Made by a program: the position numbers and the translations under genes
Origin: a virus
DNA length: 40,517 nt
Strand: one strand, 5' to 3'
IMG/VR virus record: IMGVR_UViG_3300013114_000244
Span: 1 to 40,517 of that record
Shown here: positions 1 through 40,517 of the stretch, one piece after another
How the letters are laid out: the number at the start of each line of letters is the position of its first letter
Position numbering within the stretch: position 1 is the stretch's first letter
Notes under the pieces: generated by a model
The model's input: only the letters and a program-made list of their open reading frames with translations
What the model was told of the DNA's origin: nothing
The model's database searches: none

Positions 1-204
1 TCGTTGGCAAATACATCCAACCAATTTTGTGTACAAATTACGCTAGATGACTCAACTGTGGCTTATGTAGAGAAATTCTACAATAACACAGTTCACTATG
101 TTACGGCGGCAGGCGCGGCTGGAACAGTTCCTTACACATTAGGAACTGATATCTCTGGCTCAATTGCGGCAGGTAAAGGTAATATAGACATAGTATCTGA
201 GTAA
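1..204 (+). CDS. 3' end of a structural protein (partial)
   Basis: The frame is open from the first base of the window to a TAA at 202-204, so only the C-terminal 67 residues are seen and the true start lies upstream. The fragment is rich in Thr, Ala and Gly (for example TAAGAAGTVPYTLGTDISG) and lacks charged helical segments, as in phage beta-rich virion proteins. It is followed by a strong intrinsic terminator and a late promoter leading into fibre genes, so it probably ends a virion-protein transcription unit. I recognise no specific family. Two Ala-Ala pairs are both encoded GCG-GCN, as elsewhere in the window. Confidence 0.6.
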   Translation, partial: SLANTSNQFCVQITLDDSTVAYVEKFYNNTVHYVTAAGAAGTVPYTLGTDISGSIAAGKGNIDIVSE

Positions 205-235
205 TAGTCACTAGACACGTGCTTATAAGAATATT

Positions 236-262
236 GGGGGAGTTTAGGCTCCCCCTTTCTTT
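236..262 (+). terminator. Intrinsic terminator
   Basis: A perfect 7-bp stem GGGGGAG / CTCCCCC (236-242 with 249-255) closes a 6-nt loop and is followed by a T-rich stretch TTTCTTT. It ends the unit whose last gene stops at 204. A late promoter octamer begins 2 nt further on. Confidence 0.85.
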
Positions 263-263
263 A

Positions 264-271
264 TATAAATA
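264..271 (+). promoter_or_regulatory. T4-type late promoter (TATAAATA)
   Basis: An exact match to the T4 late octamer TATAAATA. Only 8 nt separate it from the ATG at 280. In T4 the start point lies about 6 nt past the octamer, so the predicted mRNA has a leader of 2-3 nt and no room for a ribosome-binding site. Confidence 0.8.
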
Positions 272-279
272 ATACTAAC

Positions 280-993
280 ATGGCAAAAACTTTACGTACA
301 TCAGGTGATTACACCATTAAAACTGGCACAGGTGCTAGTGGGTCAAATTACGTTAATCTTGACTCAAGTAATACAAGAGTTATGGGTAATTTAATTGTTG
401 ATGGTACACGAACTGAATTGAATACATCAACTTTAAGCGTTGAAGATTCCTCATTACTTTTAAACAGAAATGCCTCAGGTGCTGATATTGACTCTGGTGT
501 AATGATAGAGCGAGATGGTTCTAATAATGCGGCATTCTACTGGAACGAAGGTGATGATACTTGGAGAGCAGTTACAACTTCGTCAGGACCAACAGCAACA
601 GCAATTGCCGATACAGCATTAGCAAAAATTCAGGTGGCGGAACCAGCGGCAAATTCAGATGCGGCTACAAAAAATTATGTAGATACCACAGCTAGTGGAG
701 CCATATTATCAGGTTCAACAAACAATCAGGTTACAACTGTAACAGGTGCGAATGCTATAACTGGTGAAGCAAATTTAACATTTGACGGAACAACTTTAGG
801 GGTAACAGGTGTTATTGATGCTGATTATGTAAGAATTTTTGATAATGAAATTACAACAAATGCCACAGATGCCAATTTAGAAATTTCAGCTAATGGCTCT
901 GGAAATGTGGTAATTAATGGCATCAATTTTTTGACATCTGGAGAAATGATAAGTAAGAGTAAGGCTACGGCATTAGCGATAGCATTAGGATAA
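280..993 (+). CDS. Tail-fibre-like modular structural protein
   Basis: A 237-residue, Thr/Ser/Asn-rich protein expected to form part of a fibre or adhesin on the virion. Residues ~35-60 carry the module NLIVDGTRTELNTSTLSVED, which recurs almost identically in the gene at 9965, and then GVMIERDGSNNAAFYWNE, a module also seen in the genes at 3281 and 8237. The stretch EPAANSDAATKNYVD (~residues 123-137) is the usual 'coordinate, then ..KKYVD' linker of marine T4-like fibre proteins. It is the first gene after a terminator plus late promoter and heads a run of genes to 2347. Exact position in the fibre is unknown. Confidence 0.7.
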   Translation: MAKTLRTSGDYTIKTGTGASGSNYVNLDSSNTRVMGNLIVDGTRTELNTSTLSVEDSSLLLNRNASGADIDSGVMIERDGSNNAAFYWNEGDDTWRAVTTSSGPTATAIADTALAKIQVAEPAANSDAATKNYVDTTASGAILSGSTNNQVTTVTGANAITGEANLTFDGTTLGVTGVIDADYVRIFDNEITTNATDANLEISANGSGNVVINGINFLTSGEMISKSKATALAIALG

Positions 994-998
994 AAAGT

Positions 999-1316
999 AT
1001 GGCAATAACAAATTTTCAAGTAGGAACCAGCGTTACAGCGGCTTTCACTGCTTCGGCGGCAGGAGGAACTGCGATTACAGTAATTTATATTACTAATAAA
1101 ACTGACGGTGACGGAACAGTAGACGTTTACGTTACTCCAACTGGTGTATCAGCTACTGCAAATCATTTAGTATATTCACAATTAACTATTAAAGCTAGAG
1201 ACACTTACATACTTGATACAGAAAAAATGATTTTAGAAAATGGTGCAAAAATTTGGATTGCGGCACCAGATTCGGCGGCACAATTCAACGCAACAATCTC
1301 AACTATAGAGTTATAA
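999..1316 (+). CDS. Small beta-rich virion protein, unknown
   Basis: 105 residues beginning at ATG 999, 5 nt after the preceding stop. The sequence alternates hydrophobic and small polar residues (TAITVIYITNKTDGDGTVDVYV), suggesting a small beta-sandwich, and has no transmembrane segment or signal peptide. It lies in tight tandem between two fibre-type genes, so a role as a fibre accessory or tip protein is inferred from position only. I recognise no specific family. Confidence 0.6.
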   Translation: MAITNFQVGTSVTAAFTASAAGGTAITVIYITNKTDGDGTVDVYVTPTGVSATANHLVYSQLTIKARDTYILDTEKMILENGAKIWIAAPDSAAQFNATISTIEL

Positions 1317-1320
1317 TACC

Positions 1321-1788
1321 ATGGGTAGGTTTGCTAAAAATCCAGTAATAGGCGACAATGCTGTTGGAGTTACTATTCCAAATGTAACAACTACACAAAG
1401 ACCTGCAGGTGTTAATGGACAATTAGTTTACAACACAACAACATCAACATATCAATCTTATATTGGTTCAGCATGGTACAATATGTCAACTGCGGCTGGC
1501 GAAAAAACAATTACAATAGATAAATTTCAAGGTGACGGAACAACTGTAACTTTTGGTGCAGGAGCAGGTAATACATTAGACGGATCTACTGGAGCAAGTT
1601 TTACTCAAACTGTAAATAATGCAACAGATATTGTGGTTTTTGTTGGAGGTGTTTATCAAGTACCGACAACAAACTATACAGTATCAGGACAACAAATAAC
1701 TTTTGGTTCTGCTCCACCGGCAAACGATGGTGCAACAAATGGTCATATAATTTCTATTATCCACGGATTACACAAATTAGGCGAGTAA
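1321..1788 (+). CDS. Short fibre-module protein
   Basis: 155 residues made of two modules found in other proteins of this island. Residues ~22-55 are a TTTQRPAGVNGQLVYNTTTS..W unit, also present in the genes at 6232, 8237 and 11128. Residues ~65-150 are a GDGTTVTF...VFVGGVYQVPTTNYTVSGQQITFGSAPP unit matching the C-termini of the genes at 6232 and 8237. This is effectively a fibre C-terminal half encoded as an independent gene. It precedes a methyltransferase gene by one base and shares its transcript. Confidence 0.65.
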   Translation: MGRFAKNPVIGDNAVGVTIPNVTTTQRPAGVNGQLVYNTTTSTYQSYIGSAWYNMSTAAGEKTITIDKFQGDGTTVTFGAGAGNTLDGSTGASFTQTVNNATDIVVFVGGVYQVPTTNYTVSGQQITFGSAPPANDGATNGHIISIIHGLHKLGE

Positions 1789-1789
1789 T

Positions 1790-2347
1790 ATGCCTACATT
1801 TCCTAACGGGCATTTCAATTGGCTTTGGCCTTACGTATCAACACAAACATTAAGAACTGCAATAGACATAGGCGGCCACTTAGGAAACTGGACATTAAAT
1901 TGGCACCATAGAGTAAAAAAAATTGAAATATTTGAACCTAATCCCGATGTACTACCTAAACTCAAAAAAAATACTAATACATTAAAAAATTGCACTGTAC
2001 ATGAAGTTGCTTTAGGTGATACTCCTGGAAAAGTTTCTATGCAATATGAAACTCATCTAGGCACCTACCATATAAAAGATCATAATGGTTCTATTAATTT
2101 ACAAACACTTGACAGTTATAATTTTCAAAACGTAGATATTATAAAAATAGATGTTGAAGGATTTGAAGTACCTGTGTTGGAAGGTGCAAAAGAAACAATT
2201 CTTTCTAACAAACCATGGATACAGATTGAAGCAAATCATACTGGAGAACGTTACGGTAGACCTAAAAAGAAAATACTTGAAAAGTTAACGGAATTTGGAA
2301 TGAAACGAATTGCTAAAGAGTGGCCTGATCAAATTTGGAAATTTTAA
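1790..2347 (+). CDS. FkbM-family SAM-dependent methyltransferase
   Basis: A 185-residue Rossmann methyltransferase. The SAM-binding loop AIDIGGHLGNWT is at ~residues 24-35, followed by an acidic strand end (IEIFEPNPDVLPKL) that would bind the ribose. The FkbM hallmark IIKIDVEGFEVPVLEGA is at ~115-131. FkbM enzymes usually O-methylate sugars or small molecules, and the substrate here is unknown. The start is one base after the upstream fibre gene's stop, so it is co-transcribed with fibre genes and would be expressed late. It meets the minus-strand fibre gene tail to tail, 3 nt apart. Possible roles are methylation of glycans on the virion or on the host surface (inference). The protein is shorter than many FkbM enzymes but the core is complete. 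Confidence 0.8.
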   Translation: MPTFPNGHFNWLWPYVSTQTLRTAIDIGGHLGNWTLNWHHRVKKIEIFEPNPDVLPKLKKNTNTLKNCTVHEVALGDTPGKVSMQYETHLGTYHIKDHNGSINLQTLDSYNFQNVDIIKIDVEGFEVPVLEGAKETILSNKPWIQIEANHTGERYGRPKKKILEKLTEFGMKRIAKEWPDQIWKF

Positions 2348-2350
2348 ATT

Positions 2351-3217
2351 TTATTGAATAATTCCAAAAGGACGCCAGTTACCTGGTTTTCCACCATTAA
2401 CACATACCCAACCAACTGGTTTATTAATTGAGGGCTTTTCATTCCACACAATTGATCCTGTGTTCCAACGACCTTCGCGAGGATGTTTCTCTCCTGCGGC
2501 AAATGTTCTTTCAGCAAATTTAATATTGCCATCAACTTCTAATGCTTCTCCTGGATATTTGACACCAACACCAAGTTGACCATACACAGATAATTTAACA
2601 GGCTTACCTGTTTCTGATCCAACTACTACATCACCATTAGCACGACAAGTTAATCTTGGCGTAAAATCTGTACCAATAGCAAATGCAACGTGAGTATGTG
2701 TTCCAACAAATGCATTCGCTTCTTGCATAGTTGTAAGAATTTCATAACCACCTGAATTTACTGAAAAGTCTGCCGATGGTGCAGTTGTGTTTACTCCTAC
2801 TCTTCCATCTGCAACATATAAAACATTTCTTACTTGTAAATTTTTAAGTATACCTAACTCTTGCAAATAACTTTTTCTAACAGATTTTCCTAACGATTCT
2901 TTCCAAATTACTTCATTATGATTAACCATAATTGCATCTTGTACATTTAATTTTGGAACTGATGCTTGTACATATTGTAAATTTTCTACCTTTACTGTAC
3001 CTTTAATGTGTAAATCTTTTGCAACTTCAACATAGTCGTCTTTAACTATAATTTGTGTTTCATTTGATTCATCTTTAATACCTGTTGATGTAAAGTTTGT
3101 AATTGTTCCCCCATCAATAACATCACCTGATACAGAATTTTTTTTGAAATCAACTTGTGATACTCTTACCGTAGATTCAGAAACTTTTTCAATTTTATTA
3201 AGGGGTAATAGTGTCAT
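2351..3217 (-). CDS. Tail-fibre-like protein, minus strand
   Basis: 288 residues. The N-terminus (MTLLPLNKIEKVSESTVRV) differs from the MAIGRI-type N-termini of the neighbours. The middle holds the fibre signature VADGRVGVNTTAPSADFSV (~residues 136-154), and the C-terminus holds a compact domain rich in Gly, Trp and Pro (GSIVWNEKPSINKPVGWVCVNGG). It is the only fibre-type gene read leftwards in the island and has its own late-type promoter 8 nt before the ATG. Inversion relative to its paralogues suggests it moved as a cassette. It may be an alternative receptor-binding protein, which is inference. Confidence 0.7.
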   Translation of the reverse strand: MTLLPLNKIEKVSESTVRVSQVDFKKNSVSGDVIDGGTITNFTSTGIKDESNETQIIVKDDYVEVAKDLHIKGTVKVENLQYVQASVPKLNVQDAIMVNHNEVIWKESLGKSVRKSYLQELGILKNLQVRNVLYVADGRVGVNTTAPSADFSVNSGGYEILTTMQEANAFVGTHTHVAFAIGTDFTPRLTCRANGDVVVGSETGKPVKLSVYGQLGVGVKYPGEALEVDGNIKFAERTFAAGEKHPREGRWNTGSIVWNEKPSINKPVGWVCVNGGKPGNWRPFGIIQ

Positions 3218-3225
3218 ATAATGAT

Positions 3226-3233
3226 TATTTAGT
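3226..3233 (-). promoter_or_regulatory. Late promoter variant (ACTAAATA)
   Basis: Read on the minus strand this is ACTAAATA, followed by 8 nt and the ATG of the leftward fibre gene (3217). The spacing equals that of the exact TATAAATA at 264, supporting a genuine, near-leaderless late promoter. Confidence 0.6.
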
Positions 3234-3259
3234 GCGGGTTATCTACCGTACGAATAATT

Positions 3260-3267
3260 GGTAAATA
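3260..3267 (+). promoter_or_regulatory. Late promoter variant (GGTAAATA)
   Basis: GGTAAATA lies 13 nt before ATG 3281. Together with the leftward octamer at 3226-3233 it forms a divergent late promoter pair in a 63-nt gap. No Shine-Dalgarno is visible in the short leader. Confidence 0.5.
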
Positions 3268-3280
3268 TTGATGTAGTATT

Positions 3281-6232
3281 ATGGCAATAACAAAGATAGC
3301 AGGAGAATTATTAGAATCTAATCTAATCCGTTCTACGGATCTAACATTTAATACAGATTTATTAGTGGTAGATGTAGCTAACGGTAGGATTGGTATAGGT
3401 ACGGCTAGTCCTGGTAATTTTAAATTAGACGTTACTGGTAATGCTAGAATCACAGGTGACCTTACAGTTGAAGGTACAACAACCACAGTAGACTCACAAA
3501 ATTTATCTATAGAAGACAACATGATTGTCTTAAACAGTTCAGGATCAATAGGACATAATTCAGGAGTAATGATTAACAGAGGTGGAGCAGGCAATAATGC
3601 AGTAATGTATTGGGATGAATCTATAGACAAATTTAAATTTGGAACAACAACAGCTGATGGTTCTACAACAGACGATTTTGCATCAGCACTAGCAAAATTA
3701 CAAATTGGTGAACCAGCGGCAGATTCAGATGCATCAACTAAAAAATATGTAGATGATTCAATTACAACAGTAAGTTCATCTATACCATCATCGGGTGGAG
3801 CTTTAACTTTAGGCCTACCAACAGATTCAAGTTTTGGTGATGGCTCATTTACACTTAACAATGCTGGTACAGTTGTAGATGCAATTGATGATTTAAATGA
3901 AGTAACAGAAAATATTAGATTAAATTATTATGTAAAAAGTGTAACGTTTACAGCAGATACAACAGCGGCTGGTTCAGGTACAACAATAACATTAACAATT
4001 TCAACAGTAGGTGGAGGTGCAGACAGATATACAATTACTTGGGGTGACGGAAATACAACAACAGGTACATCTGATTCAACACCATCTCACACTTATACAG
4101 CAACTGGTACCATGTCGGTTACTGTAAAAGCATATGCCAACGGTGCAGTAACAGATTCATCAGGATCACACGCATCATCTACAAGATCAAATTATATTAC
4201 AATTTACACAGCAACACCTGTTGTAGATTTTGAATTATATGATGTTAGTTCAGGTGGTTCAGCATTAACCGGAAACAATTTATGGGTAGTTGAAGGACAA
4301 ACAAGATACATGAAAAATTTAACAACAAATACTTTAGCAGGTGCGGCCACAGTAGCATACGATATGACATGGGGTGACGGTACTGCAGATGAAACTATTG
4401 GAGACGGTGCAGTTGCAGGTGGATCGCAAGAAGATAGTGGAACATATCTATCACATACTTGGGGAGCAGGTACACATAGCAGTACAGGACAAGACACATT
4501 AATATTAGAATTAGATACACACAGTACAGCCAATCCAGCAGATATTCCAGCAACAGAAACAAAATCTAACTTTTTAAAAGTTTATGATGACGCTCCTTCG
4601 GCGCCAAATCATTTAGGTTCAAAAACAATAGCCATGAACGCAACAACAGGAACAAGTCCAAAACTTTGTTCTGGATTTAGTGAAAACGTATCAGGCTCTC
4701 CAACTTATTCAGCAGGAGATTCTGTTAACAGAATTACAACAGTTGATCCTGTTAGAACTGCATCACAATCAACTTATTGTTACAATGCCGCGGCCGGCAC
4801 ATTAACAGCATACGTAAACGGAAGTGCTGATGGAGCCATTTCATTAGGTGCTGGTGACCAAAGTGGTACAGCAACAAGTTTAACAATAGAATCAGAAAGT
4901 GATTATAATTTATTAGATGCAACAGGAGCCGCTACTTCTTTTGCAACAAGCATTTATTATCCAAATCTTTATAGTGGATTTAAAGCTATTGTTAGTAAAG
5001 CAACAAGCGGAATTAGTACAGGTGTAAACAGTTTTCAATTACAACACACATTAGGTAATACAAACGTTTTAGAATTTGTAAAAGATAATGTAACTGCAAC
5101 ACCTACTTCATCAATTGGAACCGTTTCACAAAGTGCGGCAGGAAATTTAAAATATGTTTCTGGAATCCCATATTACAATGATGGTTCACCTAGTTTATCG
5201 GTAGCAGGATCAACAATTACAAACTTTACAGGACAATGTTATCAAGACACATCGTCACCAGTTGAAATAGATCCAGGTACTAACTTAGAAAGTACATCTG
5301 GACACGTTATTGCCAATTTAGATTTTACATATGCAACTATTGGTGACGGTTCAACTACTGTTCCAGCAGTAAATCTTGGAGTAGGTAGTGCATACACACT
5401 TGCCACTCTTACAGTACCTCTTTTAAGTACTCAAAGACGTTCAATTCAACAAATTAAAATGAGAGCAAAGAACTGTAATGGAAATGGTTCTTATTCAGAA
5501 AGTTCAACAAAAATTCAAATGTATAGCAATACCCGTTTAGCACTAGACAACGAAAGTGCTGAAGGTTCACAAGCGGGAGTTATAGCAGTATCAGATTCTT
5601 TAGGGGCAACGTTTGATGACGATGCCGTTAGAATTGCAGGGTTCGGTGCCTTGTCAAGTGACAATCCATCACTATTTGATTCATCTAATGCCAATTACTA
5701 CACAGATTCAGCATGGTCTGGAGCGGTTACTGTGGCGGGCACCAACGAAGCAATATCAAGATTTGGAACAATTAAACACTTTACAACAGATTTAAGTAGT
5801 GGTTATCTTCCAGCCGGACCGGACTTAAATACCGGCAGGTCAGGAGCTCAGTATTATACTTTTGCATTTAGACGAGCAACAGTTTCACAATTTTCAATTA
5901 CAATGTCAGGCAAAGTATCTGGTATGTGGATTAATCTTCCAGGTGCTTCAACTGACACAACAGCATCTCCAACTAATGGTTGGTTAGATTGTTCAACACA
6001 ATACAATGGTTCTGGAGTTCCAGGAACAGGTGTAGGAGGAAACGGAAGTGCTGGAGTGGCAAAAACAGGTGGCGATAGAGTAGTTGATAATACAACTTAT
6101 TCATCAGAACAATTTACATTTACACTTGGTACAGAAAGTATGTCTAATTCAACAGGTAACAATTGTTTAGTAAGAATTTTATTAAATTCTGGCGATAGCA
6201 TAACAGCATTGTCAGTAGGAGTAGCAGAATAA
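3281..6232 (+). CDS. Large tail-fibre/adhesin with PKD-like domains
   Basis: 983 residues. Residues 1-50 are the shared attachment-type module (MAITKIAGELLESNLIRS... NGRIGIGTASP). Residues ~60-100 hold the VDSQNLSIEDNMIVLN and GVMINRGGAGNNAVMYWDE modules, and ~145-160 the EPAADSDASTKKYVDD linker. Two PKD-like repeats follow, with the typical ITWGDGNTT...SHTYTATG (~residue 250) and MTWGDGTAD...LSHTWGAG (~361) motifs. The rest is low-complexity beta-rich sequence with scattered Cys. PKD domains commonly mediate protein or polysaccharide contacts on surfaces. The stop overlaps the next start (TAATG), so the two genes are translationally coupled. Probably a long fibre or side-fibre subunit. Confidence 0.75.
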   Translation: MAITKIAGELLESNLIRSTDLTFNTDLLVVDVANGRIGIGTASPGNFKLDVTGNARITGDLTVEGTTTTVDSQNLSIEDNMIVLNSSGSIGHNSGVMINRGGAGNNAVMYWDESIDKFKFGTTTADGSTTDDFASALAKLQIGEPAADSDASTKKYVDDSITTVSSSIPSSGGALTLGLPTDSSFGDGSFTLNNAGTVVDAIDDLNEVTENIRLNYYVKSVTFTADTTAAGSGTTITLTISTVGGGADRYTITWGDGNTTTGTSDSTPSHTYTATGTMSVTVKAYANGAVTDSSGSHASSTRSNYITIYTATPVVDFELYDVSSGGSALTGNNLWVVEGQTRYMKNLTTNTLAGAATVAYDMTWGDGTADETIGDGAVAGGSQEDSGTYLSHTWGAGTHSSTGQDTLILELDTHSTANPADIPATETKSNFLKVYDDAPSAPNHLGSKTIAMNATTGTSPKLCSGFSENVSGSPTYSAGDSVNRITTVDPVRTASQSTYCYNAAAGTLTAYVNGSADGAISLGAGDQSGTATSLTIESESDYNLLDATGAATSFATSIYYPNLYSGFKAIVSKATSGISTGVNSFQLQHTLGNTNVLEFVKDNVTATPTSSIGTVSQSAAGNLKYVSGIPYYNDGSPSLSVAGSTITNFTGQCYQDTSSPVEIDPGTNLESTSGHVIANLDFTYATIGDGSTTVPAVNLGVGSAYTLATLTVPLLSTQRRSIQQIKMRAKNCNGNGSYSESSTKIQMYSNTRLALDNESAEGSQAGVIAVSDSLGATFDDDAVRIAGFGALSSDNPSLFDSSNANYYTDSAWSGAVTVAGTNEAISRFGTIKHFTTDLSSGYLPAGPDLNTGRSGAQYYTFAFRRATVSQFSITMSGKVSGMWINLPGASTDTTASPTNGWLDCSTQYNGSGVPGTGVGGNGSAGVAKTGGDRVVDNTTYSSEQFTFTLGTESMSNSTGNNCLVRILLNSGDSITALSVGVAE

Positions 6233-7260
6233 TGGCAATAACAGACGCAAAAAAAGTAGATTATCTTTGGAAGAAATTAGGTTATGGTACAACTAAAACT
6301 GACACCAATGCTAATAAGGCGGCACCTAATGAAGCCATTGCATCTCCATTATTATTAAGAGGTGATAAAGTTTGGAACCAAGCAAACGGAATTCCAACAA
6401 CAATGCCAGGATCAAGTGCAGATGTTGTAACAGTTTATCCTACAGGTACTCCAACTGAAGCAACAGAAGATAATACAGCAACAGCAAGTAGATCATGGAA
6501 AACAAATTTAACAGATTGGATTCCACCAGAATTTGGTGCAACATATGGAGTTATAGTTTATATTCACACATCATCTGATGCGGGTAATGCCGCTTCGGGT
6601 GGAACTAGAGTATTTGCCGCAGGTTCAGGTAACAATGATGAATTCTTTTTTGATTATCAATCTGGTGTATTGCACTTTATCGGTACTAACTTACCTAACG
6701 GTGTTTCGTTTTCAGGCAAATCAGTTTATGTTTCTGGTGCAAGATATACAGGAACAATTGGTGTTGCAAGTTTAAAAGCAGATACAGGTAATTTTACACT
6801 TTCAGGATCTACAATAAACCAAGATGTTACAAATGCTGATTTTACATTAGGTACATCAGGTACAGGAAAATATCTATTCAGCTCTGATACTGGTATTGTT
6901 TTACCTACAGGTACTACTGCACAACGTCCAACAGCTGAACAAGGTGTAATGAGATTCAATACTACAACTGGAAAATATGAAGTATCTCAAGATGGTTCTA
7001 CTTGGACAAATTTAAAAACAGATCAAACTGAACAAGATATTACAAAAGATGTAATAACTGGCGATGGCTCAACTACTAGTTTCGCAACAATGACTAAATC
7101 GCCTGCAGATGCTAAAAATATTATTGTCTATATGGATGGTGTAATGCAAGAAGCCACACAAAATTATACTATAAGTGGTAACACTCTTACATTTGGTGAA
7201 GCACCACACGCCTCAGCACGAATAGTTGTAATGCATGGATTTGCAGAAGAACCTGTTTAA
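6232..7260 (+). CDS. Tail-fibre-like protein, coupled to upstream fibre
   Basis: 342 residues. The N-terminal third (MAITDAKKVDYLWKKLGYGTTKTD) is distinct: YLWKKLGYG is unlike the other fibres and may be a trimer-joining or attachment segment. Residues ~220-255 are the LPTGTTAQRPTAEQGVMRFNTTTGKYE module. Residues ~270-340 are the GDGSTTSFATM...IIVYMDGVMQEATQNYTISGN module shared with the genes at 1321 and 8237. The start codon shares a base with the upstream stop (TAATG). Its stop overlaps that of the convergent minus-strand gene by 4 nt. Virion fibre role inferred from modules and context. Confidence 0.7.
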   Translation: MAITDAKKVDYLWKKLGYGTTKTDTNANKAAPNEAIASPLLLRGDKVWNQANGIPTTMPGSSADVVTVYPTGTPTEATEDNTATASRSWKTNLTDWIPPEFGATYGVIVYIHTSSDAGNAASGGTRVFAAGSGNNDEFFFDYQSGVLHFIGTNLPNGVSFSGKSVYVSGARYTGTIGVASLKADTGNFTLSGSTINQDVTNADFTLGTSGTGKYLFSSDTGIVLPTGTTAQRPTAEQGVMRFNTTTGKYEVSQDGSTWTNLKTDQTEQDITKDVITGDGSTTSFATMTKSPADAKNIIVYMDGVMQEATQNYTISGNTLTFGEAPHASARIVVMHGFAEEPV

Positions 7261-7619
7261 TCTATTGTAACACCAGTTGATGTATAAACAACATTAAAAT
7301 TTTGTAATTGTCCAGTAATAATATTCATTATATCTAATTCTGCAACAATTTCCCACTCAAATTCGGGTTGCCTTATAATAAAATCATAAACATCTTGACC
7401 TGATTCAAACCAAAGTCTAATACCTGTCATTGAATGATTATTATCAATATAAAAAGATTTACGACAAACAATTTTTAATACGTTCGAAACTTTTTCTCTA
7501 AAACGATTCATTTGTTCTACAAGATCTGGACGTTCTGTTAACGTTTCTACTGAACGATTACGACATATAGCCGGCCATCTTAATTTTAAACTATATTTGT
7601 AAAATTTATTTTCTGGCAT
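7257..7619 (-). CDS. Unknown protein, second gene of a minus-strand pair
   Basis: 120 residues from ATG at 7619. A TTG one codon upstream is the only longer option and is unlikely. The composition is unlike the surrounding fibre genes: charged, with Trp, Phe and Cys (LKLRWPAICRNR, RLWFESGQDVYDFIIRQPEFEWE), and it looks like a small globular alpha/beta protein. It overlaps the end of the upstream gene (7606-8142) by 14 nt, so the two are translationally coupled and probably act together. I recognise no family. Confidence 0.6.
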   Translation of the reverse strand: MPENKFYKYSLKLRWPAICRNRSVETLTERPDLVEQMNRFREKVSNVLKIVCRKSFYIDNNHSMTGIRLWFESGQDVYDFIIRQPEFEWEIVAELDIMNIITGQLQNFNVVYTSTGVTID

Positions 7620-8142
7620 CAATTACTTCCTGATATTTTATATACGTATCACAAAAACAATTGTCTAACTCATCTAATTTCTTTATACGTGGACTACAAA
7701 TATTTGCAAATCTTATGTCTGGATTGGATATTATAATACTTTTTAATCTTGTAAGTTCTATTGGATTATTCAAATCATAACCTAATAAAAATATAACTTT
7801 TGGTTTAAGATATACTGCTAACATTAATGATAAGCATTGTGGAGTACAATTATTGGGATTAATTTCTAATGTTTTTATACCAGGAAACTCGGGTAAACAA
7901 GTTACTTCATTAAAAAATATATATTTCTTAAACAGCTCTTCTGGAACAAGTATGTTAGTACCTTGAAAATTAGCCGAATTTAACATATCTTGTAAAATTG
8001 TCTCTGAATTACAGGTTGCATATGCAAAATTAATACTTTTATTACTATTAGCTGATGCTATTACAGGGCCTATATGCATGGATTCATGCAAATCAAAGCC
8101 AATTGGCAGATTTCCAACGATTGTTACGTAATTATTTTTCAT
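7606..8142 (-). CDS. Unknown Rossmann-like protein
   Basis: 178 residues. It opens with a strand-loop (YVTIVGNLPIGFDLH), contains a hydrophobic central strand followed by a Gly-Asp turn (PKVIFLLGYDLNN, ~residues 113-125), and ends with charged helices, a pattern resembling Rossmann-like folds of glycan-related phage and bacterial enzymes. Six Cys residues are present. No catalytic signature is clear enough to name a reaction. It heads a two-gene leftward unit inserted between rightward fibre units. A late-type octamer lies 10 nt upstream, and a TATAAT with a weak -35 lies further upstream (8167-8172), so timing is uncertain. Confidence 0.6.
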   Translation of the reverse strand: MKNNYVTIVGNLPIGFDLHESMHIGPVIASANSNKSINFAYATCNSETILQDMLNSANFQGTNILVPEELFKKYIFFNEVTCLPEFPGIKTLEINPNNCTPQCLSLMLAVYLKPKVIFLLGYDLNNPIELTRLKSIIISNPDIRFANICSPRIKKLDELDNCFCDTYIKYQEVIDARK

Positions 8143-8152
8143 TATGTTAAGG

Positions 8153-8160
8153 TATTTAAC
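8153..8160 (-). promoter_or_regulatory. Late promoter variant (GTTAAATA)
   Basis: Minus-strand GTTAAATA, 10 nt before the ATG at 8142. A TATAAT on the same strand at 8167-8172 offers an alternative host-type -10, with only a poor TTGATA -35 at 15 bp. Confidence 0.45.
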
Positions 8161-8181
8161 GACACGATTATAGACAAATCA

Positions 8182-8189
8182 AATAAATA
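8182..8189 (+). promoter_or_regulatory. Late promoter variant (AATAAATA) with leader
   Basis: AATAAATA lies 47 nt before ATG 8237. The leader ends with AAGGGG (8223-8228), a good Shine-Dalgarno 8 nt from the start, so this gene belongs to the class of late genes with conventional leaders. Confidence 0.65.
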
Positions 8190-8236
8190 TCAATAGTTTT
8201 GCAAAAACAATTATCGATAATTAAGGGGAAAACAAC

Positions 8237-9838: not shown

Positions 9839-9873
9839 TTAGTATAGTATAATATAACCTTATAGATAATTTT

Positions 9874-9915
9874 AAACGCTCTAACGATAAATATTGTTGT
9901 TAGAGCGTTTTTTTT
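9874..9915 (+). terminator. Intrinsic terminator with a late promoter in its loop
   Basis: A 12-bp perfect stem AAACGCTCTAAC / GTTAGAGCGTTT (874-885 with 899-910 of this kilobase) ends in an eight-T run. The 13-nt loop contains GATAAATA, a late-promoter octamer. Transcripts arriving from upstream contain both arms and should terminate. A transcript started by the loop promoter would begin near the right arm, lack the left arm, and escape. Confidence 0.85.
9886..9893 (+). promoter_or_regulatory. Late promoter variant (GATAAATA) inside terminator loop
   Basis: GATAAATA within the loop of the terminator at 9874-9915, upstream of the fibre gene at 9965, which has a good ribosome-binding site (GGGAGAA). 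It is the only late octamer found between the two fibre genes. Confidence 0.6.
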
Positions 9916-9964
9916 ACGACTAAAATCTCTAACACTTTAATAATATCATGCGGGAGAATGAACC

Positions 9965-10975: not shown

Positions 10976-11002
10976 TAAATACTAATACTTTTTAGTAAAA
11001 TT

Positions 11003-11031
11003 AAAGGCGGTCTTCGGATCGCCTTTTTTTT
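11003..11031 (+). terminator. Intrinsic terminator with UUCG tetraloop
   Basis: A 10-bp stem (AAAGGCGGTC with GATCGCCTTT, one G-T wobble) is capped by an exceptionally stable C(TTCG)G loop and followed by an eight-T tract. It closes the unit of the gene at 9965. A late promoter starts 6 nt later. Confidence 0.92.
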
Positions 11032-11036
11032 ATCCC

Positions 11037-11044
11037 GATAAATA
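11037..11044 (+). promoter_or_regulatory. Late promoter variant (GATAAATA) with long leader
   Basis: GATAAATA directly after the terminator. The predicted leader is about 78 nt, contains a small GTGTAA / TTACAC hairpin (11083-11101) and ends in AAAGGAG before ATG 11128. Confidence 0.7.
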
Positions 11045-11127
11045 CAATTACTGCTGTCAGTCGGCAATGTAAACGAGACTGTGTGTAATGTATTGTTACA
11101 CTAACATATTAAAGGAGACCTAGAGTT

Positions 11128-25550: not shown

Positions 25551-25558
25551 TATAAATA
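25551..25558 (+). promoter_or_regulatory. Late promoter (TATAAATA)
   Basis: Exact TATAAATA, 7 nt before ATG 25566. The bases between (CAAGGGT) contain a GGG, but the predicted transcript start is too close to the ATG for it to act as a ribosome-binding site. Confidence 0.8.
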
Positions 25559-25565
25559 CAAGGGT

Positions 25566-30764: not shown

Positions 30765-32360
30765 ATGGCGTATGTATCGTTAGACAGTGAACAGGTAAAA
30801 CGTGCCCATAAAAAGCACAAATATACCAAAGAACAAGTCTTACAACTCGAACAGTGTATGAACACAAAGACTGGACCGTTGTATTTCATGGAAACATTTA
30901 TGAGAATACAACATCCAACTAAAGGTGAAATGGCTTTTCATCCTTATTCTTTTCAAAAAAGATTAATTGAATCATATAACAATTATCGATTTTCTGTATC
31001 AATGCTACCACGACAAACAGGTAAAACAACCTGTGCGGCAGGATATATTATTTGGTATGCTATGTTCCATCCAGATTCATCTATATTAATTGCGGCACAC
31101 AAATACGCAGGTGCGTCTGACATTATGTCACGTGTAAGATTTTCATACGAAATGTTACCTGAATGGATTAAAGCTGGAGTAACGCAATACAATAGAAATT
31201 CTATAGAATTTGACAATGGTTCAAAAATAATAGCAACTACTACAACTGAAAATACTGGGCGGGGTATGTCTTTAACAATGATATATTGTGATGAGTTTGC
31301 ATTCGTGCAACCACCAGATAAAGCAAAAGAATTTTGGACGTCACTATCTCCTACCTTGTCAACAGGAGGTAAGTGTATGATTACATCAACTCCAAACTCT
31401 GATGAAGATCAATTTGCGTTAATTTGGAAAGAAGCTAATAAAAAATTCGATGAATACGGCAATGATAAAATTGTAGGAACTAATGGCTTCTATGCCATGA
31501 AAGCTCACTGGTCAGAACATCCTGAACGAGATGATAAGTGGGCAGAAACTGAAAAAGCAAGAATAGGTGAGGAAAGATTTAGACGAGAACACGAATGTGA
31601 GTTTATAATCTTTGATGAAACATTAATTAACTCTACAACATTAGCAGAAATGGAAGGTACTCTTCCTATAGAAAGTACAGGACAGGTACGTTGGTATAAA
31701 AGACCCACACCAGGACATACATATATGGTATCATTAGATCCAAGCATGGGTACAGGTGGCGACTATGCGGCTATACAAGTATTTGAATTGCCAACATTTG
31801 AGCAAGTTGCAGAATGGCGTCATAATGAAACACCAATGAATCAGCAAATTAGAATATTACAAGGAATTACCAAACATATACATGACACTATAATAGAGAA
31901 AGATGCAGGTGCTACTCCACAAATATTTTATTCAATGGAAAATAATGCAATTGGTGAGGCGGCACTTTTAAGAGTTATGGATATTGGCGAAGAAAATATT
32001 ATAGGTATGTTCTTATCAGAACCTATTAGAAGAGGACATAGACGAAAATTTAGAAGAGGATTTAATACTACTGCAAAACATAAAATTGATGCTTGTACAA
32101 AATTTAAAGAACTTGTAGAAAATAACAAACTACAAATTAACTCTAAATTGCTTATAACAGAATTAAAGGATTTTGTTGCAATAGGTATGAGTTATAAAGC
32201 TAAACCAGGACAACACGACGATTTAGTTAGTGCTTGTTTATTAATGACACGTATGATAAAAGTACTTGCAGATTTTGATCCTAAAATATTCGAAAAATGG
32301 ACTGATAGAACATCTGAATGGACTGCACCAATGCCAATCTTCGCAAACCTATACGGATAA
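30765..32360 (+). CDS. 17: Terminase large subunit (T4 gp17-like)
   Basis: 531 residues. The ATPase half has Walker A MLPRQTGKTT at residues 80-89 (Lys87), Walker B MIYCDE at 172-177 (Asp176/Glu177) and a coupling motif ITSTPNS. The nuclease half shows SLDPSMGTGGDYAA from residue 323 (Asp325), then a central acidic strand (IFYSMENNAIGEA), and QHDDLVSACLL with Asp485/Asp486. These give the RNase-H-fold metal site that cuts concatemers. The protein packages DNA into the head through the portal with gp16. T4 gp17 is 610 residues. The mRNA is predicted near-leaderless. Confidence 0.95.
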   Translation: MAYVSLDSEQVKRAHKKHKYTKEQVLQLEQCMNTKTGPLYFMETFMRIQHPTKGEMAFHPYSFQKRLIESYNNYRFSVSMLPRQTGKTTCAAGYIIWYAMFHPDSSILIAAHKYAGASDIMSRVRFSYEMLPEWIKAGVTQYNRNSIEFDNGSKIIATTTTENTGRGMSLTMIYCDEFAFVQPPDKAKEFWTSLSPTLSTGGKCMITSTPNSDEDQFALIWKEANKKFDEYGNDKIVGTNGFYAMKAHWSEHPERDDKWAETEKARIGEERFRREHECEFIIFDETLINSTTLAEMEGTLPIESTGQVRWYKRPTPGHTYMVSLDPSMGTGGDYAAIQVFELPTFEQVAEWRHNETPMNQQIRILQGITKHIHDTIIEKDAGATPQIFYSMENNAIGEAALLRVMDIGEENIIGMFLSEPIRRGHRRKFRRGFNTTAKHKIDACTKFKELVENNKLQINSKLLITELKDFVAIGMSYKAKPGQHDDLVSACLLMTRMIKVLADFDPKIFEKWTDRTSEWTAPMPIFANLYG

Positions 32361-36480: not shown

Positions 36481-37449
36481 ATGGCTACATTGGCTGAAAT
36501 AAGAGCGAAGTTAAAATCCCAAGAAGTGAATCGCTCCACTTCTTCAACAGGTGGCGACAATGCCATCTATCCACACTGGAACATACAGGAAGGACACGAA
36601 GCAGTTATTAGATTCTTACCCGATAAGGATACTACTAACACTTTTTTCTGGACTGAGAGAAATATGATCAAACTACCTTTTGCAGGTATTAAAGGTCAAA
36701 GTGATTCTCGACCAATCCAGGTGCAAGTACCGTGTATGGAAATGTACGGAAAAACTTGTCCGGTTCTAACAGAAGTTAGACCTTGGTTTAAAGACAAATC
36801 AATGGAGGACATGGGCAGAAAGTATTGGAAGAAAAAAAGTTATATATTCCAAGGCTTTGTTGTACAAAATCCATTAAACGAAGATGCAACTCCAGAAAAC
36901 CCAATTAGAAGATTTATAATTGGACCACAAATCTTTAATATAATTAGATCGGCATTACTTGATCCAGAAATGGAAGAGTTACCAACTGATTATGTAAAAG
37001 GTGTAGACTTTAGAGTTAACAAAACTTCTAAAGGTGGATATGCTGACTACTCAACATCAAAATGGTCACGAAGAGAAAGAGCTCTAGACGAAACGGAAAG
37101 AGCATCTATTGATAAGTTTGGTTTACATAACTTATCAGACTATAGACCAAAAGAACCATCTGAAGCAGAAGTAAAAATAATTAAAGAATTATTTGAAAAA
37201 TCTGTTGAGGGTGAGTCTTATGATCTTGAGAAGTATGGACAATACTTTAGACCTGCAGGTGTAGGTAGAGTATCTATACCAACAGCAAGTAGACCTGCTC
37301 CAGTTGAGAAGACTGCTAACCCGGTAAATGCAGAAGTAAAAGTTGCAGAAACGGTAACAGCGTCGGCTCCAACAGCACAACCAACAGGTGATAGTGCCAA
37401 ACGAGCAGAAGACATCTTGAAATTAATCAGATCAAGACAGGCAAAATAA
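36481..37449 (+). CDS. 32: Single-stranded DNA-binding protein (T4 gp32-like)
   Basis: 322 residues (T4 301). The N-terminal basic helix MATLAEIRAKLKSQE matches the cooperativity domain. The OB-fold core contains HWNIQEGHEAVIRFLPDKD, FFWTERNMIKLPFAGI, CMEMYGKTCPVLTEVRPWF, and KKKSYIFQGFVVQNPL. Only two Cys (85 and 93) occupy the zinc region, and the third Cys of a CPxC motif is Leu. The C-terminus ends basic (AEDILKLIRSRQAK), not in the acidic tail of T4 gp32 that recruits partner proteins. It coats ssDNA in replication and recombination and lies directly upstream of uvsX. Confidence 0.93.
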   Translation: MATLAEIRAKLKSQEVNRSTSSTGGDNAIYPHWNIQEGHEAVIRFLPDKDTTNTFFWTERNMIKLPFAGIKGQSDSRPIQVQVPCMEMYGKTCPVLTEVRPWFKDKSMEDMGRKYWKKKSYIFQGFVVQNPLNEDATPENPIRRFIIGPQIFNIIRSALLDPEMEELPTDYVKGVDFRVNKTSKGGYADYSTSKWSRRERALDETERASIDKFGLHNLSDYRPKEPSEAEVKIIKELFEKSVEGESYDLEKYGQYFRPAGVGRVSIPTASRPAPVEKTANPVNAEVKVAETVTASAPTAQPTGDSAKRAEDILKLIRSRQAK

Positions 37450-37506: not shown

Positions 37507-37517
37507 AGAAAGTGATT

Positions 37518-38579
37518 ATGGTTAAACCGTTTGACGTAACAAAATTTAGAAAAAGCATAACAAAGTCCATACAAGGACTTGGCATAGGATTTAATGATCC
37601 AACGGATTGGATAAGCACAGGAAACTATGCGTTAAATTATTTAATAAGTGGAGACTTCAACAAAGGTGTTCCGCTAGGCAAAGTAACAGTACTAGCAGGT
37701 GAGTCTGGCTCAGGTAAATCATTTATAGCATCAGGCAATTTAGTGCGTAATGCACAAAAACAAGGCATCTATGTAATACTAATCGATTCTGAAAATGCAT
37801 TAGACCAATCATGGCTTGAAGCCCTTGGTGTTGATACTAGCGAAGATAAACTTTTAAGATTAAGTTTATCAATGGTAGATGACGTAGCAAGAACTGTTTC
37901 AGACTTTATGAAAGGTTATAAAGACGAACACGCCGACGATAAAGAAAATGCACCTAAAGTATTAATTGTAATTGATAGTTTGGGTATGTTATTAACACCA
38001 ACCGATGTTGATCAGTTTGAAAAAGGTGAAATGAAAGGTGACTTAGGTAGAAAACCCAAAGCCTTAACAGCATTTGTAAGAAACTGTGTTAATATGTTTG
38101 GTAGTTGGAACGTAGGACTTATAGCAACTAATCACACTTATGCATCACAAGATATGTTTAATCCTGATGATAAAATATCTGGTGGACAAGGATTTATATA
38201 TGCATCAAGTATTGTGATTGCAATGAAGAAATTAAAACTTAAAGAAGACGAAAAAGGTAATAAAATTACTGACGTTAGGGGTATTAGAGCGGCTTGTAAA
38301 GTAATGAAAACACGTTTTTCAAAACCGTTTGAATCAGTACAAGTTAAGATACCGTATGACACGGGTATGGATCCATTTTCGGGATTAGTTGAATTATTTG
38401 AGAAAAAAGGGGTACTAGTACAAACAGGAAACAGGTTAAAATACGTAGATTCTAAAGGAAAAGAACATATTGAGTTCCGAAAATCCTGGGTTGGAGATAA
38501 ATTATTGATGTTGATGGACAACTATGATAAATTATCAACAAACCTTAAGGAAGAAATTGATGATAGACATGACGCATGA
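37518..38579 (+). CDS. uvsX: UvsX RecA-like recombinase
   Basis: 353 residues from ATG 37518; the GTG at 37512 would sit too near the predicted transcript start. Walker A GESGSGKS is at residues 61-68, Walker B LIVIDSLGML around Asp153, LIATNHTY follows the core strand, then KISGGQGFIYASSIVIAMKK and CKVMKTRFSKPFESVQVKIPYDTGMDPFSGL, all in UvsX order (T4 'GLLILAGPSKSFKSNF', 'VVFIDSLGNL', 'IAINHTY', 'FDGGIDPYSGLLD'). It catalyses strand exchange for recombination-dependent replication. T4 UvsX is 391 residues. The end overlaps the next gene by 20 nt. Confidence 0.93.
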   Translation: MVKPFDVTKFRKSITKSIQGLGIGFNDPTDWISTGNYALNYLISGDFNKGVPLGKVTVLAGESGSGKSFIASGNLVRNAQKQGIYVILIDSENALDQSWLEALGVDTSEDKLLRLSLSMVDDVARTVSDFMKGYKDEHADDKENAPKVLIVIDSLGMLLTPTDVDQFEKGEMKGDLGRKPKALTAFVRNCVNMFGSWNVGLIATNHTYASQDMFNPDDKISGGQGFIYASSIVIAMKKLKLKEDEKGNKITDVRGIRAACKVMKTRFSKPFESVQVKIPYDTGMDPFSGLVELFEKKGVLVQTGNRLKYVDSKGKEHIEFRKSWVGDKLLMLMDNYDKLSTNLKEEIDDRHDA

Positions 38580-38811
38580 AGACATTGAACGTATTTGGAA
38601 CTCATTTTCTCTTTACATACCAGACAGACAAAAATCGGATGCCGCAGTTGACTTTGTTAGTACATTAAAGTTTCTTGATGTTGACACTGATCAAATTAAA
38701 GCATCATCCGATCATGATCCAAAATTAGAAGAAGCAGTAGAATCTGTGTATGGTGGAGAAGAAGACGAAGACGAAGACGAATACGGAGATGATGGTGAAT
38801 TGGTATACTGA
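38560..38811 (+). CDS. Small acidic protein in the uvsX operon
   Basis: 83 residues starting at ATG 38560, chosen because AAGGAAG ends 6 nt upstream; ATG 38569 is the alternative. The start lies inside uvsX, giving translational coupling. The N-terminal ~65 residues form a helical domain (THEDIERIWNSFSLYIPDRQKSDAAVDFVSTLKFLDVDTDQI) like small proteins found beside recombination genes in cyanophages. The C-terminus is an acidic tail (EEDEDEDEYGDDGE) that may mimic DNA or contact gp32 or UvsX. Function unknown. Confidence 0.65.
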   Translation: MIDMTHEDIERIWNSFSLYIPDRQKSDAAVDFVSTLKFLDVDTDQIKASSDHDPKLEEAVESVYGGEEDEDEDEYGDDGELVY

Positions 38812-39253
38812 AGTAAGCAAAAACATACAACAAATACCAGACTGTATTAAACACTTTGAAACTGAATTATTACAAGCAAAAAAAGAATGTTCTATTTGGG
38901 GTAATTTAGAAAAAGCATCTGCAACAATGCCCGGAGTAGTTGAACACCGATTTAATCAATTACAAGAAATCGAAGCAATCCTAGAATATTTAAATATTGA
39001 ATATCGTAGGTTAAGATCTAAAACATTTCGAAATTTTTTAGAAAGTTATAATAAAAAGCTAACCAGCAGAGATGCTGACAAATATGTTGACGGTGAAGCC
39101 GATGTTGTTGATATGGCAAAAATTATAAATGACTTTGCACTTTTAAGAAACCAATGGTTAGGCATTACCAAAGGACTAGACCAAAAACAATGGCAACTTA
39201 CAAACATTGTTAAATTGCGTGTAGCAGGGATGGAAGATGCCAATATCAAATAG
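38792..39253 (+). CDS. UvsY-like recombination mediator (probable)
   Basis: About 153 residues. The start could be ATG 38789, ATG 38792 or GTG 38795, just after GGAG at 38785-38788, and it overlaps the preceding gene's end. The protein is helical and charged. Its second half (YLNIEYRRLRSKTFRNFLESY, ...DVVDMAKIINDFALLRNQWLGITKGLDQKQWQLTNIVKLRVAGMED) resembles T4 UvsY in layout: a core with Tyr/Arg, a gap, then a long helix and a terminal 'I...I..MRA'-like motif. UvsY loads UvsX on gp32-coated ssDNA, and position after gp32 and UvsX supports this. Identity at residue level is weak, so the symbol is withheld. Confidence 0.55.
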   Translation: MVNWYTEVSKNIQQIPDCIKHFETELLQAKKECSIWGNLEKASATMPGVVEHRFNQLQEIEAILEYLNIEYRRLRSKTFRNFLESYNKKLTSRDADKYVDGEADVVDMAKIINDFALLRNQWLGITKGLDQKQWQLTNIVKLRVAGMEDANIK

Positions 39254-39869
39254 AATAATCCTTACAGACGTAGACGGCGTATTACTAGAATGGGAAAATC
39301 ATTTTACTAAATGGATGATATCTCGTGGACACAAATTAAAAGAAAATTATAAATCTGAATACGATATGGGAAAAAGATTTGTATATTATGCAAAAATCTT
39401 TGAATCTACCAAACATTATAGCGAGGCGTCTGATGATATTAAAATTGCAATTCGAGAATTTAATAAAAGTGCTTGGATGGCAACACAACCCCCAATGCCT
39501 GACTCGCAAACTTGGGTAAAACTATTACACGCAGAGGGCTGGACATTTATACCAATTAGCTCACAAACATCTGATGTTCCTGCACAAGAATTACGTAAAA
39601 GAAGATTAGAAGAACTATTTGGTAAGGATACTTTTTATAACTTTCATATACTCGACACTGGACAAGATAAAGACGATGTTCTTGCAGAATTCCATGGTAC
39701 AGGATTATATTTTGTAGAAGATAAATGGACAAATGCATTAGCAGGTTTAAAATATGGCTTAAAAGTATTATTCATTAGTCATCCTTATAACAAAAAATAT
39801 AGACACCCCAACATTACCAGAGTAAATAATTGGCAAGACATACATAAAATTGTTAAAAAGGGAAAATGA
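39237..39869 (+). CDS. HAD-like phosphatase
   Basis: 210 residues. The HAD motif I is ILTDVDGVLLEW with Asp11 and Asp13. Motif II is a strand ending in Ser (WTFIPISSQTSD), followed by a basic segment with Lys/Arg (RKRRLEELFG), and motif IV is GLYFVEDKWTNALAG with acidic residues. The family includes 5'-nucleotidases and sugar phosphatases. The substrate is not determinable. The start overlaps the UvsY-like gene by 17 nt and the stop overlaps the glycosyltransferase start (ATGA), so it links the recombination operon to a glycosylation gene. Confidence 0.75.
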   Translation: MPISNRIILTDVDGVLLEWENHFTKWMISRGHKLKENYKSEYDMGKRFVYYAKIFESTKHYSEASDDIKIAIREFNKSAWMATQPPMPDSQTWVKLLHAEGWTFIPISSQTSDVPAQELRKRRLEELFGKDTFYNFHILDTGQDKDDVLAEFHGTGLYFVEDKWTNALAGLKYGLKVLFISHPYNKKYRHPNITRVNNWQDIHKIVKKGK

Positions 39870-40517
39870 AAATTTACGTAGGCTACGACACTCGAGAAGA
39901 TATAGCATATCAAGTTTGCGAACATTCCATTAAAAGACGCAACGGACAAACTGAAGTTATTGCATTAAAACAAAAAGAATTAAGAGAACAAGGAATTTAT
40001 TATAGAGAAGTTGATAAACTTGCTTCAACAGAATTTACATTTACAAGATTTTTTATTCCATACCTAAACAACTATAACGGTTGGGCAATATTTTGTGATT
40101 GTGATTTTGTCTGGCGTATATCCCCTACAGAATTAGAACAATATTGTGATGACTCTAAAGCAGTAGTTTGTGTACAACACGATTACAAACCTAAAGAAGG
40201 TTTAAAAATGGACGGACAAGTGCAATTAGTTTATCCAAGAAAAAATTGGAGCAGTATGGTACTTTGGAATTGTGGACATCCTAAAAATAAAATACTAACA
40301 CCAGAACTATTAAACAAAGAAACAGGAAAATTTTTACATAGATTTTCATGGTTAGATGACTCTGACATAGGAAATTTACCTCCTATATACAATTGGCTAG
40401 TAAATTGGTACAAAGAACCTAAAGACGGCATACCTAAAATACTTCATTATACTGAAGGCGGACCATGGTTTGAAAATTATAGAAACTGTGAGTATGCTGA
40501 TGTGTGGAAGAAAGAAT
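39866..40517 (+). CDS. Glycosyltransferase, GT-A/GT8-like (3' partial)
   Basis: At least 217 residues; the frame runs off the window end. It starts at ATG 39866 in an ATGA overlap with the HAD gene. Motifs include KIYVGYDTREDIAYQVCEHSI at the N-terminus, STEFTFTRFFIPYLNNYNGWAIFCDCDFVW (~residues 54-83) with the metal-binding DxD (Asp-Cys-Asp), then MVLWNCGHPKN and ILHYTEGGPWF, which fits the family's His-containing C-terminal motif. These enzymes transfer sugar from a nucleotide sugar. Target (virion protein, DNA or host glycan) unknown. Confidence 0.8.
   Translation, partial: MKIYVGYDTREDIAYQVCEHSIKRRNGQTEVIALKQKELREQGIYYREVDKLASTEFTFTRFFIPYLNNYNGWAIFCDCDFVWRISPTELEQYCDDSKAVVCVQHDYKPKEGLKMDGQVQLVYPRKNWSSMVLWNCGHPKNKILTPELLNKETGKFLHRFSWLDDSDIGNLPPIYNWLVNWYKEPKDGIPKILHYTEGGPWFENYRNCEYADVWKKE

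Follow-up and report, generated by a model that had tools for sequence, protein, structure and literature searches.

The window, by which we mean the whole stretch of DNA analyzed here, corresponds to the IMG/VR virus record IMGVR_UViG_3300013114_000244 (40,517 bases). PHROG matches identified a T4-like set in it, namely, homologues of the terminase large subunit (TerL), contractile sheath, tube, head closure, UvsX, and UvsY proteins. Judged by these matches, the window is a contig of a T4-like tailed phage. The subject of this report is a word that it lacks, GCWGC (where "W" is A or T). By exact count, there is no GCAGC and no GCTGC on either strand over the 40,517 bases, at a G+C content of 34.0%. 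An initial annotation had read this absence by eye, and the count confirmed it.

GCWGC counts and gene content of the window

Under a maximal-order Markov model, 45.8 GCWGC sites would be expected in the window, and the word is the most depleted 5-mer by z score. A trinucleotide Markov model gave an expectation of 41; the figure of about 20 sites first proposed for chance was thus too low. We also shuffled synonymous codons within 37 open reading frames (ORFs) of the window, comprising 37,884 coding bases. Over 1000 shuffles, the mean was 45.2 sites with a standard deviation of 3.0 and a minimum of 34, so that the observed zero lies far below anything the shuffles reached. The probability that chance, codon usage, or an assembly artifact produced the absence is close to nil given that minimum. 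Nothing was found in favor of such an origin, and related contigs from the same collection have normal GCWGC counts.

The codons themselves show how the word is kept out. In shuffled sequences, about 44 of 45 sites lay in frame as GCW-GCN, i.e., as Ala-Ala. The window encodes 54 Ala-Ala pairs, with GCG (46 pairs) or GCC (8 pairs) as the first codon and never GCA or GCT. Before any other residue, alanine is written GCA 561 times and GCT 216 times versus 75 times for GCC and 43 times for GCG. The initial annotation had described this preference correctly for single alanine codons and, in kind, for the pairs; its "some forty" GCG-GCN pairs with an occasional GCC correspond to these counts of 46 and 8.

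GCSGC (where "S" is G or C) occurs 61 times in the full window. Its 57 occurrences in the coding part compare with a shuffle mean of 11.6, a fivefold enrichment, which implies that the central base of GCWGC matters. GATC, GANTC, and CCWGG were close to their codon-shuffle means, with no depletion of GANTC (110 versus 114.2). Other palindromes occur in the window, as had been stated earlier (by exact count, GATC 123, GANTC 116, CTGCAG 11, CAGCTG 4, and AAGCTT 2). In pooled relatives, the one-mismatch neighbors of GCWGC (the partner strand excepted) stood at 0.95 to 1.65 of expectation; this pool was taken without L078 and L080, which have sites, and without L001, a near-copy of the window. Here and below, loci carry L numbers and records carry G numbers.

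The features of the window are as follows.

1..40517, strand not applicable: the window, free of GCAGC and GCTGC on either strand and also without RCATGY and WGCGCW (exact counts, codon shuffles)
280..15323, mostly + strand: mostly long genes, with two minus-strand genes among them (2351-3217 and 7606-8142) (ORFs)
16693..19298, − strand: two virion genes, one matching PHROG "tail sheath" and "tail sheath stabilizer" (16693-18138) and one a virion structural protein (18138-19298) (PHROG E values, 2.8e-84 and 6.3e-85)
19335..20102, + strand: head-tail adaptor Ad2 (PHROG 211, E = 1.9e-31)
20898..21299, − strand: small HNH-like protein, P0001 (weak PHROG HNH matches, E = 0.0012)
21412..24837, + strand: tail sheath (PHROG 10581, E = 1.6e-211)
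24868..26948, + strand: tail tube proteins, two genes (PHROG 4542, E = 5.6e-54 and 1.2e-9)
27325..27765, + strand: head closure protein (PHROG 218, E = 1.5e-39)
30765..32360, + strand: TerL, used as a query for relatives (PHROG 36964, E = 2.7e-113; tblastn)
36481..37449, + strand: single-strand DNA binding protein (PHROG 1192, E = 1.8e-61)
37512..38579, + strand: UvsX-like recombinase (PHROG 97, E = 5.7e-70)
38750..39253, + strand: UvsY-like recombination mediator (PHROG 231, E = 5.2e-15)

The genes in 280..15323 probably encode virion or tail-fiber proteins. Four long ones were tested; three matched PHROGs, which were mostly without an assigned function and in some cases virion structural or tail fiber, and the fourth matched none. 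By TerL, the closest isolates are Pseudomonas phages of the PA5oct group at 53.6% identity (tblastn). A near-identity search of window positions 1-25000 against 50,697 phage records gave no match. The kinds of genomes and genes encountered suggest that the phage group is marine.

Breadth of the absence and the mode of site loss

We gathered relatives from viral contigs by using TerL, a DNA polymerase III (Pol III) alpha-like gene, UvsW, portal, AAA ATPase, and two ParB-like genes as queries. Loci free of GCWGC made up 76 of 80 with TerL, 154 of 158 with Pol III and UvsW, 38 of 80 with portal, 68 of 80 with AAA ATPase, and 45 of 47 with the two ParB queries; these fractions are not natural frequencies, because the loci were picked by similarity to avoiding phages. 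We then counted sites in 537 sequences (L001-L313, L402-L580, L643-L686, and the window). Some of these loci come from the same record, and each repeated 31-mer entered the count a single time. There were 453 sequences with no GCWGC versus 3288 sites expected (5.27 Mb, about 3.53 Mb nonredundant). Five others had one or two sites, and 79 had at least three, with 2165 sites versus 2099 expected (repeat-weighted). Outside the 537, 36 of the 56 pieces L587-L642 were GCWGC-free. Counts were mostly zero or near normal, with some intermediate loci such as L455 (5 observed, 28.5 expected), L440 (5 and 22), and L481 (11 and 37).

The absence appears to extend to a record of 306,714 bases, G145, which had no GCWGCWWW on either strand and 67 matches to a reversed control pattern. 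The same 8-base word, which is a proxy for part of the GCWGC sites and not a full count, occurred 376 times in G139 (344 kb) and 337 times in G140 (358 kb). Some records entered the analysis in part: 100,000 of 100,840 bases for G035, 60,000 of 61,160 for G040, 40,000 of 40,002 for G097, 20,000 of 21,040 for G102, 80,000 of 81,967 for G130, 100,000 of 101,244 for G138, 140,000 of 344,483 for G139, and 40,000 of 357,559 for G140.

A portal tree was built from 77 of the 80 portal loci (35 zero, 42 with sites), leaving out L419, L429, and L430, whose portal was incomplete. On this tree, the GCWGC state changes at least 5 to 6 times, and the shuffled mean is about 26. Three loci with normal counts (L409, L431, and L414) are nested in a clade whose other members are zero. 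Between L414 and these zero neighbors, about half of fourfold sites differ, which is enough for GCWGC sites to have returned by drift.

One avoiding record, G038, allowed phage genes to be compared with bacterial counterparts. It carries a branched-chain amino acid transporter (liv) operon at 64209-68812 (L278:4209-8812), with Pfam matches to a binding protein, two permeases, and two ATPases. Its LivH is 84 to 87% identical to LivH of 24 SAR11 genomes. The G+C content of the operon is 38 to 45%, versus about 31% in the SAR11 stretches. The bacterial counterparts of the stretch hold 408 GCWGC sites versus 266 expected in 36 loci, which include L338, a metagenome-assembled genome with 64% G+C; the phage genes hold none. 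For a site-by-site comparison, we left out L338 and required of each homologue an identity of at least 60%, a query coverage of at least 80%, and a position on the plus strand of its locus. Across 125 gene comparisons, 174 host-side GCWGC sites were aligned; they are not independent, because the host copies (from SAR11 and related genomes) are kin. The phage was one base off in 119 of them: 107 changes were central W to S, 7 were G to A at position 1, 4 were C to T at position 5, and 1 was C to T at position 2. The change was synonymous at 126 of the 174 sites.

C5 methylation raises C-to-T change. Sites could also vanish by mutation alone, with methylated cytosines in GCWGC decaying to T in the absence of selection. 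With both strands counted, 12 of the 119 single changes are C to T, and these are the most that such decay fits, while the 107 central changes include transitions and transversions alike. In addition, GTAGC shows no excess in pooled relatives (798 versus 844). We consider methyl-cytosine decay extremely improbable and rejected it as the cause. Since at most 12 of 119 changes fit it, the loss of GCWGC reflects selection against the word.

Other missing palindromes

A second word, RCATGY (where "R" is purine and "Y" is pyrimidine), is also wholly missing from the window, with 0 observed versus 22.4 ± 3.5 and a minimum of 11 in 500 codon shuffles. CATG outside the RCATGY context is near its mean (57 versus 65.2 ± 5.8). 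WGCGCW is absent as well, against a shuffle expectation of 8.0 ± 2.6 and a minimum of 1. Partial depletion to about half was found for CTNAG (29 versus 56.7) and AGCT (59 versus 105.9). The initial annotation was right about GCWGC and had not reported the absence of RCATGY or WGCGCW.

We scanned degenerate palindromes across lineages; the figures that follow are observed/expected. The window gave 0/41 for GCWGC and 0/40 for RCATGY. Other lineages lacked other words. AGCT was 0/193 in a sister group (L432-436, L448, L452, and L459), and records G055 and G056 had AGCT at 2/109 and RCATGY at 0/95. In the L546 group, AGCT was 23/211 and WGGCCW was 2/100. Records G119-G121 had AAGCTT at 0/75. GTNNAC was nearly gone (10/275) from G035 (L100-L104), a relative with normal GCWGC, and in the nested normal lineages G097, G101, and L414, only CTTAAG was low (2/13). 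The marine isolates gave words of their own: CTNAG at 0/114 in HTVC010P; GATC at 0/100, GCNNGC at 0/51, and CCNGG at 0/35 in HTVC019P; and GATC at 0/157 and CCWGG at 0/77 in HMO-2011. HTVC008M had WGATCW at 0/90 and TCWWGA at 0/76. Because many palindromes were scanned, weak entries may be chance; the strong entries are not. We also considered a specificity broader than GCWGC, as GCWWGC and WGCGCW are low in many lineages, but they are not low uniformly and were treated as separate words.

PA5oct and its relatives are the nearest isolates both by the window TerL (53.6%) and by the AAA protein of L577, a distantly related avoiding phage (47.5%). Unlike the window, PA5oct is not depleted in GCWGC (39 versus 29 expected), and no palindrome fell under the scan threshold in the 30,000 bases examined. 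A parallel in kind comes from Staphylococcus phage K. In the 50,000 bases examined, GATC was 0/113, GGNCC was 0/27, and GCNGC was 0/18; phage K differs in having a known host, other missing words, and another phage family. The absence of GATC from this phage is well known, and common restriction-modification (R-M) systems of its host account for the words.

Among marine phages, some pelagiphage clades are depleted in a short methylation-type motif in a way that is reported to track phylogeny (Seong et al. 2022, PMC9516812). The motif there is GANTC, the one methylated in the SAR11 genome of that study, whereas GANTC is normal in the window. In a survey of viral genomes, complete or almost complete loss of type II sites is reported for about one tenth of them, mostly at orthodox type II sites, and GCWGC is below expectation in 66.3% of genomes (Rusinov et al. 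2018, PMC6286503). The two cases are alike in their complete or near-complete site loss, and GCWGC is among the sites that the survey discusses. The survey dealt with viruses whose hosts were known and with enzymes of established specificity, whereas the phages here are uncultured and comprise hundreds of contigs and a 306-kb record. We did not find the GCWGC loss of this phage group in print among open-license PMC papers. Avoidance of type II sites is a known mechanism; what is new is the phage group, the breadth, and a record of several words that differs by lineage. The breadth, the completeness, and the possible link to SAR11 are unusual.

Candidate sources of the selection

Taken together, we think that these genomes have probably been purged of GCWGC by purifying selection against a type II-like restriction endonuclease, for which host R-M systems would be the simplest source. 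Three features support selection by restriction: the word is strand symmetric and type II-like; it was lost mainly through synonymous changes, with GCSGC left intact; and other lineages lack other palindromes. In our model, the phages would face, in nearly all infections, an endonuclease that cleaves GCWGC when unmodified but not GCSGC, most simply one from R-M systems in the host population. Any newly arisen GCWGC site would expose the genome to cutting, and synonymous changes, usually of the central A/T to G/C, would be kept. Different lineages would face different enzymes and thereby acquire further forbidden palindromes, such as RCATGY in the window lineage and AGCT in the sister group. 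In lineages no longer facing the enzyme, the GCWGC count would drift back to normal. Host restriction explains the palindromic, lineage-specific pattern by one known principle. The initial annotation had likewise proposed selection by restriction, which we retain; its other suggestion, a phage modification system nearby, was not supported for the window, which had no PF00145 match.

Several results weigh against this reading. No cognate host enzyme was found when C5 methyltransferases (PF00145) were searched for in 35 SAR11 and related genomes, so that we infer the host origin, as we do the nuclease itself and GCWGC as its exact site. PF00145 was present in only 5 of the 35, many of which are incomplete single-cell assemblies. 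SAR11 is the only host clue, through the LivH of G038, and the pelagiphage study reports it to be without R-M systems (PMC9516812). Two SAR11 phages have GCWGC above expectation (HTVC008M, 65/34; HTVC010P, 57/43). The GCWGC-free loci span 31 to 48% G+C, which would need one specificity in many hosts. RCATGY is not absolute, either in the kin of the window (2/87 in L002-L005 and L007) or in records G119-G121 (4/253). Finally, several lineages are poor in GCWWGC as well, a depletion that a single plain GCWGC enzyme leaves unexplained.

HTVC019P has GCWGC below expectation (13/48). Given the SAR11 data, either other hosts are involved or restriction there is patchy or of an unseen type. Since only 5 of the 35 genomes had PF00145, restriction common to all of SAR11 was not supported. 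PF01555 was found in 31 of the 35, usually as one strong match in a frame of 343 to 394 amino acids, and a protein neighboring a PF00145 gene in these genomes resembles DrmE, below the cutoff. Aquatic bacteria with GCWGC methylation do exist, as it is reported for three freshwater Chloroflexi genomes (PMC6329791). It is conceivable, though we hold this only tentatively, that a GCWGC nuclease goes unseen by current annotation and keeps an entire group of large marine phages, with genomes of about 300 kb, free of this word, be it a SAR11-like restriction system or a phage weapon protected only by the absence of the site. The cutter could also be carried by mobile elements that compete with the phages inside their hosts, such as satellites, plasmids, or other phages, with the same effect as host restriction. 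Such a nuclease fits any restriction-type signal, and the state does change several times on the tree, but near-total absence in 3.5 Mb requires the element in almost every host, and we find this quite unlikely.

The phages might instead encode their own GCWGC nuclease, directed against host or competitor DNA, and be safe from it by lacking the site; we regard this as unlikely. The best candidate, found in both the core and the distant avoiding phages, is a ParB-like gene with a DGQH motif that overlaps or adjoins a small gene of the HNH or HNH-like kind. The pair lies at the following loci.

L546:6797-8407: ParB-HNH pair
L594:5146-6935: ParB-HNH pair
L604:2013-3675: ParB-HNH pair
L589:11375-13028: ParB-HNH pair

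In some phages, the pair is near an AAA ATPase or a DNA ligase. The distant HNH matches Pfam HNH (E = 4.4e-8), the core form was read as HNH from its motif by eye without Pfam support, and PADLOC matches of the ParB-like and HNH proteins were weak. Among sequenced phage isolates, there was no full-length match to the ParB-like protein and none to its distant form. The core form had partial matches in 8 staphylococcal phages; for the distant HNH, 240 mycobacterial phage records contained HNH genes that matched in part.

The 45 of 47 GCWGC-free loci from the ParB queries, and an avoidance common to deeply diverged phages, speak for a phage nuclease. Among the 80 AAA-ATPase loci, both genes occur in 15 of the 68 zero loci and in none of the 11 with sites; these gene-pair counts are not independent, because gene presence follows phylogeny. 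However, 51 of the 68 show neither gene within the stretch examined; 2 show HNH only, and in others the genes may lie beyond the stretch. Moreover, L685 (G154) and L660 (G147) carry the pair yet have normal GCWGC counts. In L685, the HNH reads through, but the contig ends within the ParB gene. Neither record, both being fragments, had a PF00145 or PF01555 match. The ParB-HNH pair is therefore not sufficient. The other palindromes missing in other lineages would need many phage nucleases, and their lineage-changing sets thus favor type II restriction in hosts over one phage nuclease.

Other phage genes were examined and set aside. The HNH-like gene of the window (20898-21299) belongs to a family also present in the GCWGC-keeping relatives G035 and G037, and a second HNH in G046 (P0002) has only weak relatives elsewhere. 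PF01844 gave no match in 22 records, and the GIY-YIG nuclease family PF01541 gave none in 34. A SegE-like GIY-YIG protein (L484:8995-9417) was found in zero and normal phages alike. Many genes were confined to zero records, but none of those listed was shared by all 7 early-region records under comparison.

A phage methyltransferase, of the C5 (PF00145) or N4/N6 (PF01555) kind, might protect the genome, but the records searched gave no match. The window was searched with PF00145 only and gave 0 of 1. Among related records, which are fragmentary and form overlapping sets, PF00145 gave 0 of 37, 0 of 26, and 0 of 25, and PF01555 gave 0 of 34 and 0 of 25. The distant avoiding record G128, outside the PF01555 sets, has a PF01555 methyltransferase gene at 44678-45565 (L607:4681-5565, minus strand; 123.6 bits). 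If phage cytosines were modified, the avoided enzyme could be a host type IV enzyme of the BisI type, whose GCNGC site must contain modified cytosines. For some homologues of BisI, modified GCWGC is reported to be cleaved with greater efficiency than GCSGC (PMC4926085), and that preference would suit the pattern. Such enzymes generally cut GCNGC including GCSGC, yet GCSGC is enriched in the window, and no cytosine modification gene was noticed, with no systematic search for one made. We consider this very unlikely.

The words missing from a phage lineage register which cutting enzymes it encounters. This record is sharp, with GCWGC counts mostly zero or close to normal; hundreds of uncultured contigs have it in common, and it varies from lineage to lineage. 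It could thus help to connect phages with their hosts and to predict restriction enzymes of ocean bacteria. Defense in the ocean bacteria concerned is poorly known. Should the hosts indeed belong to SAR11, the view of SAR11 as free of restriction would be challenged.

Reading of the relatives also turned up several side genes. In a T4-like phage, L082:3592-5280 (minus strand) is a short Pol III alpha-like gene with NTPase and finger domains, and a small nearby gene at L082:9825-10412 (minus strand) has a similar PDVDIDF motif; the two are perhaps a split polymerase. Adjoining the polymerase is an HhH-GPD (endonuclease III-like) glycosylase gene (L082:5347-6024, minus strand), whose family was found in 9 zero records and in no normal record of the set compared. 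L081:4482-5813 is part of a TctA-type tricarboxylate transporter (Pfam TctA), and L590:12714-14603 is a full-length Hsp70 (Pfam HSP70). Additional TctA/TctC-like, GroEL-like, and ClpX-like phage genes were noted from reading the translations.

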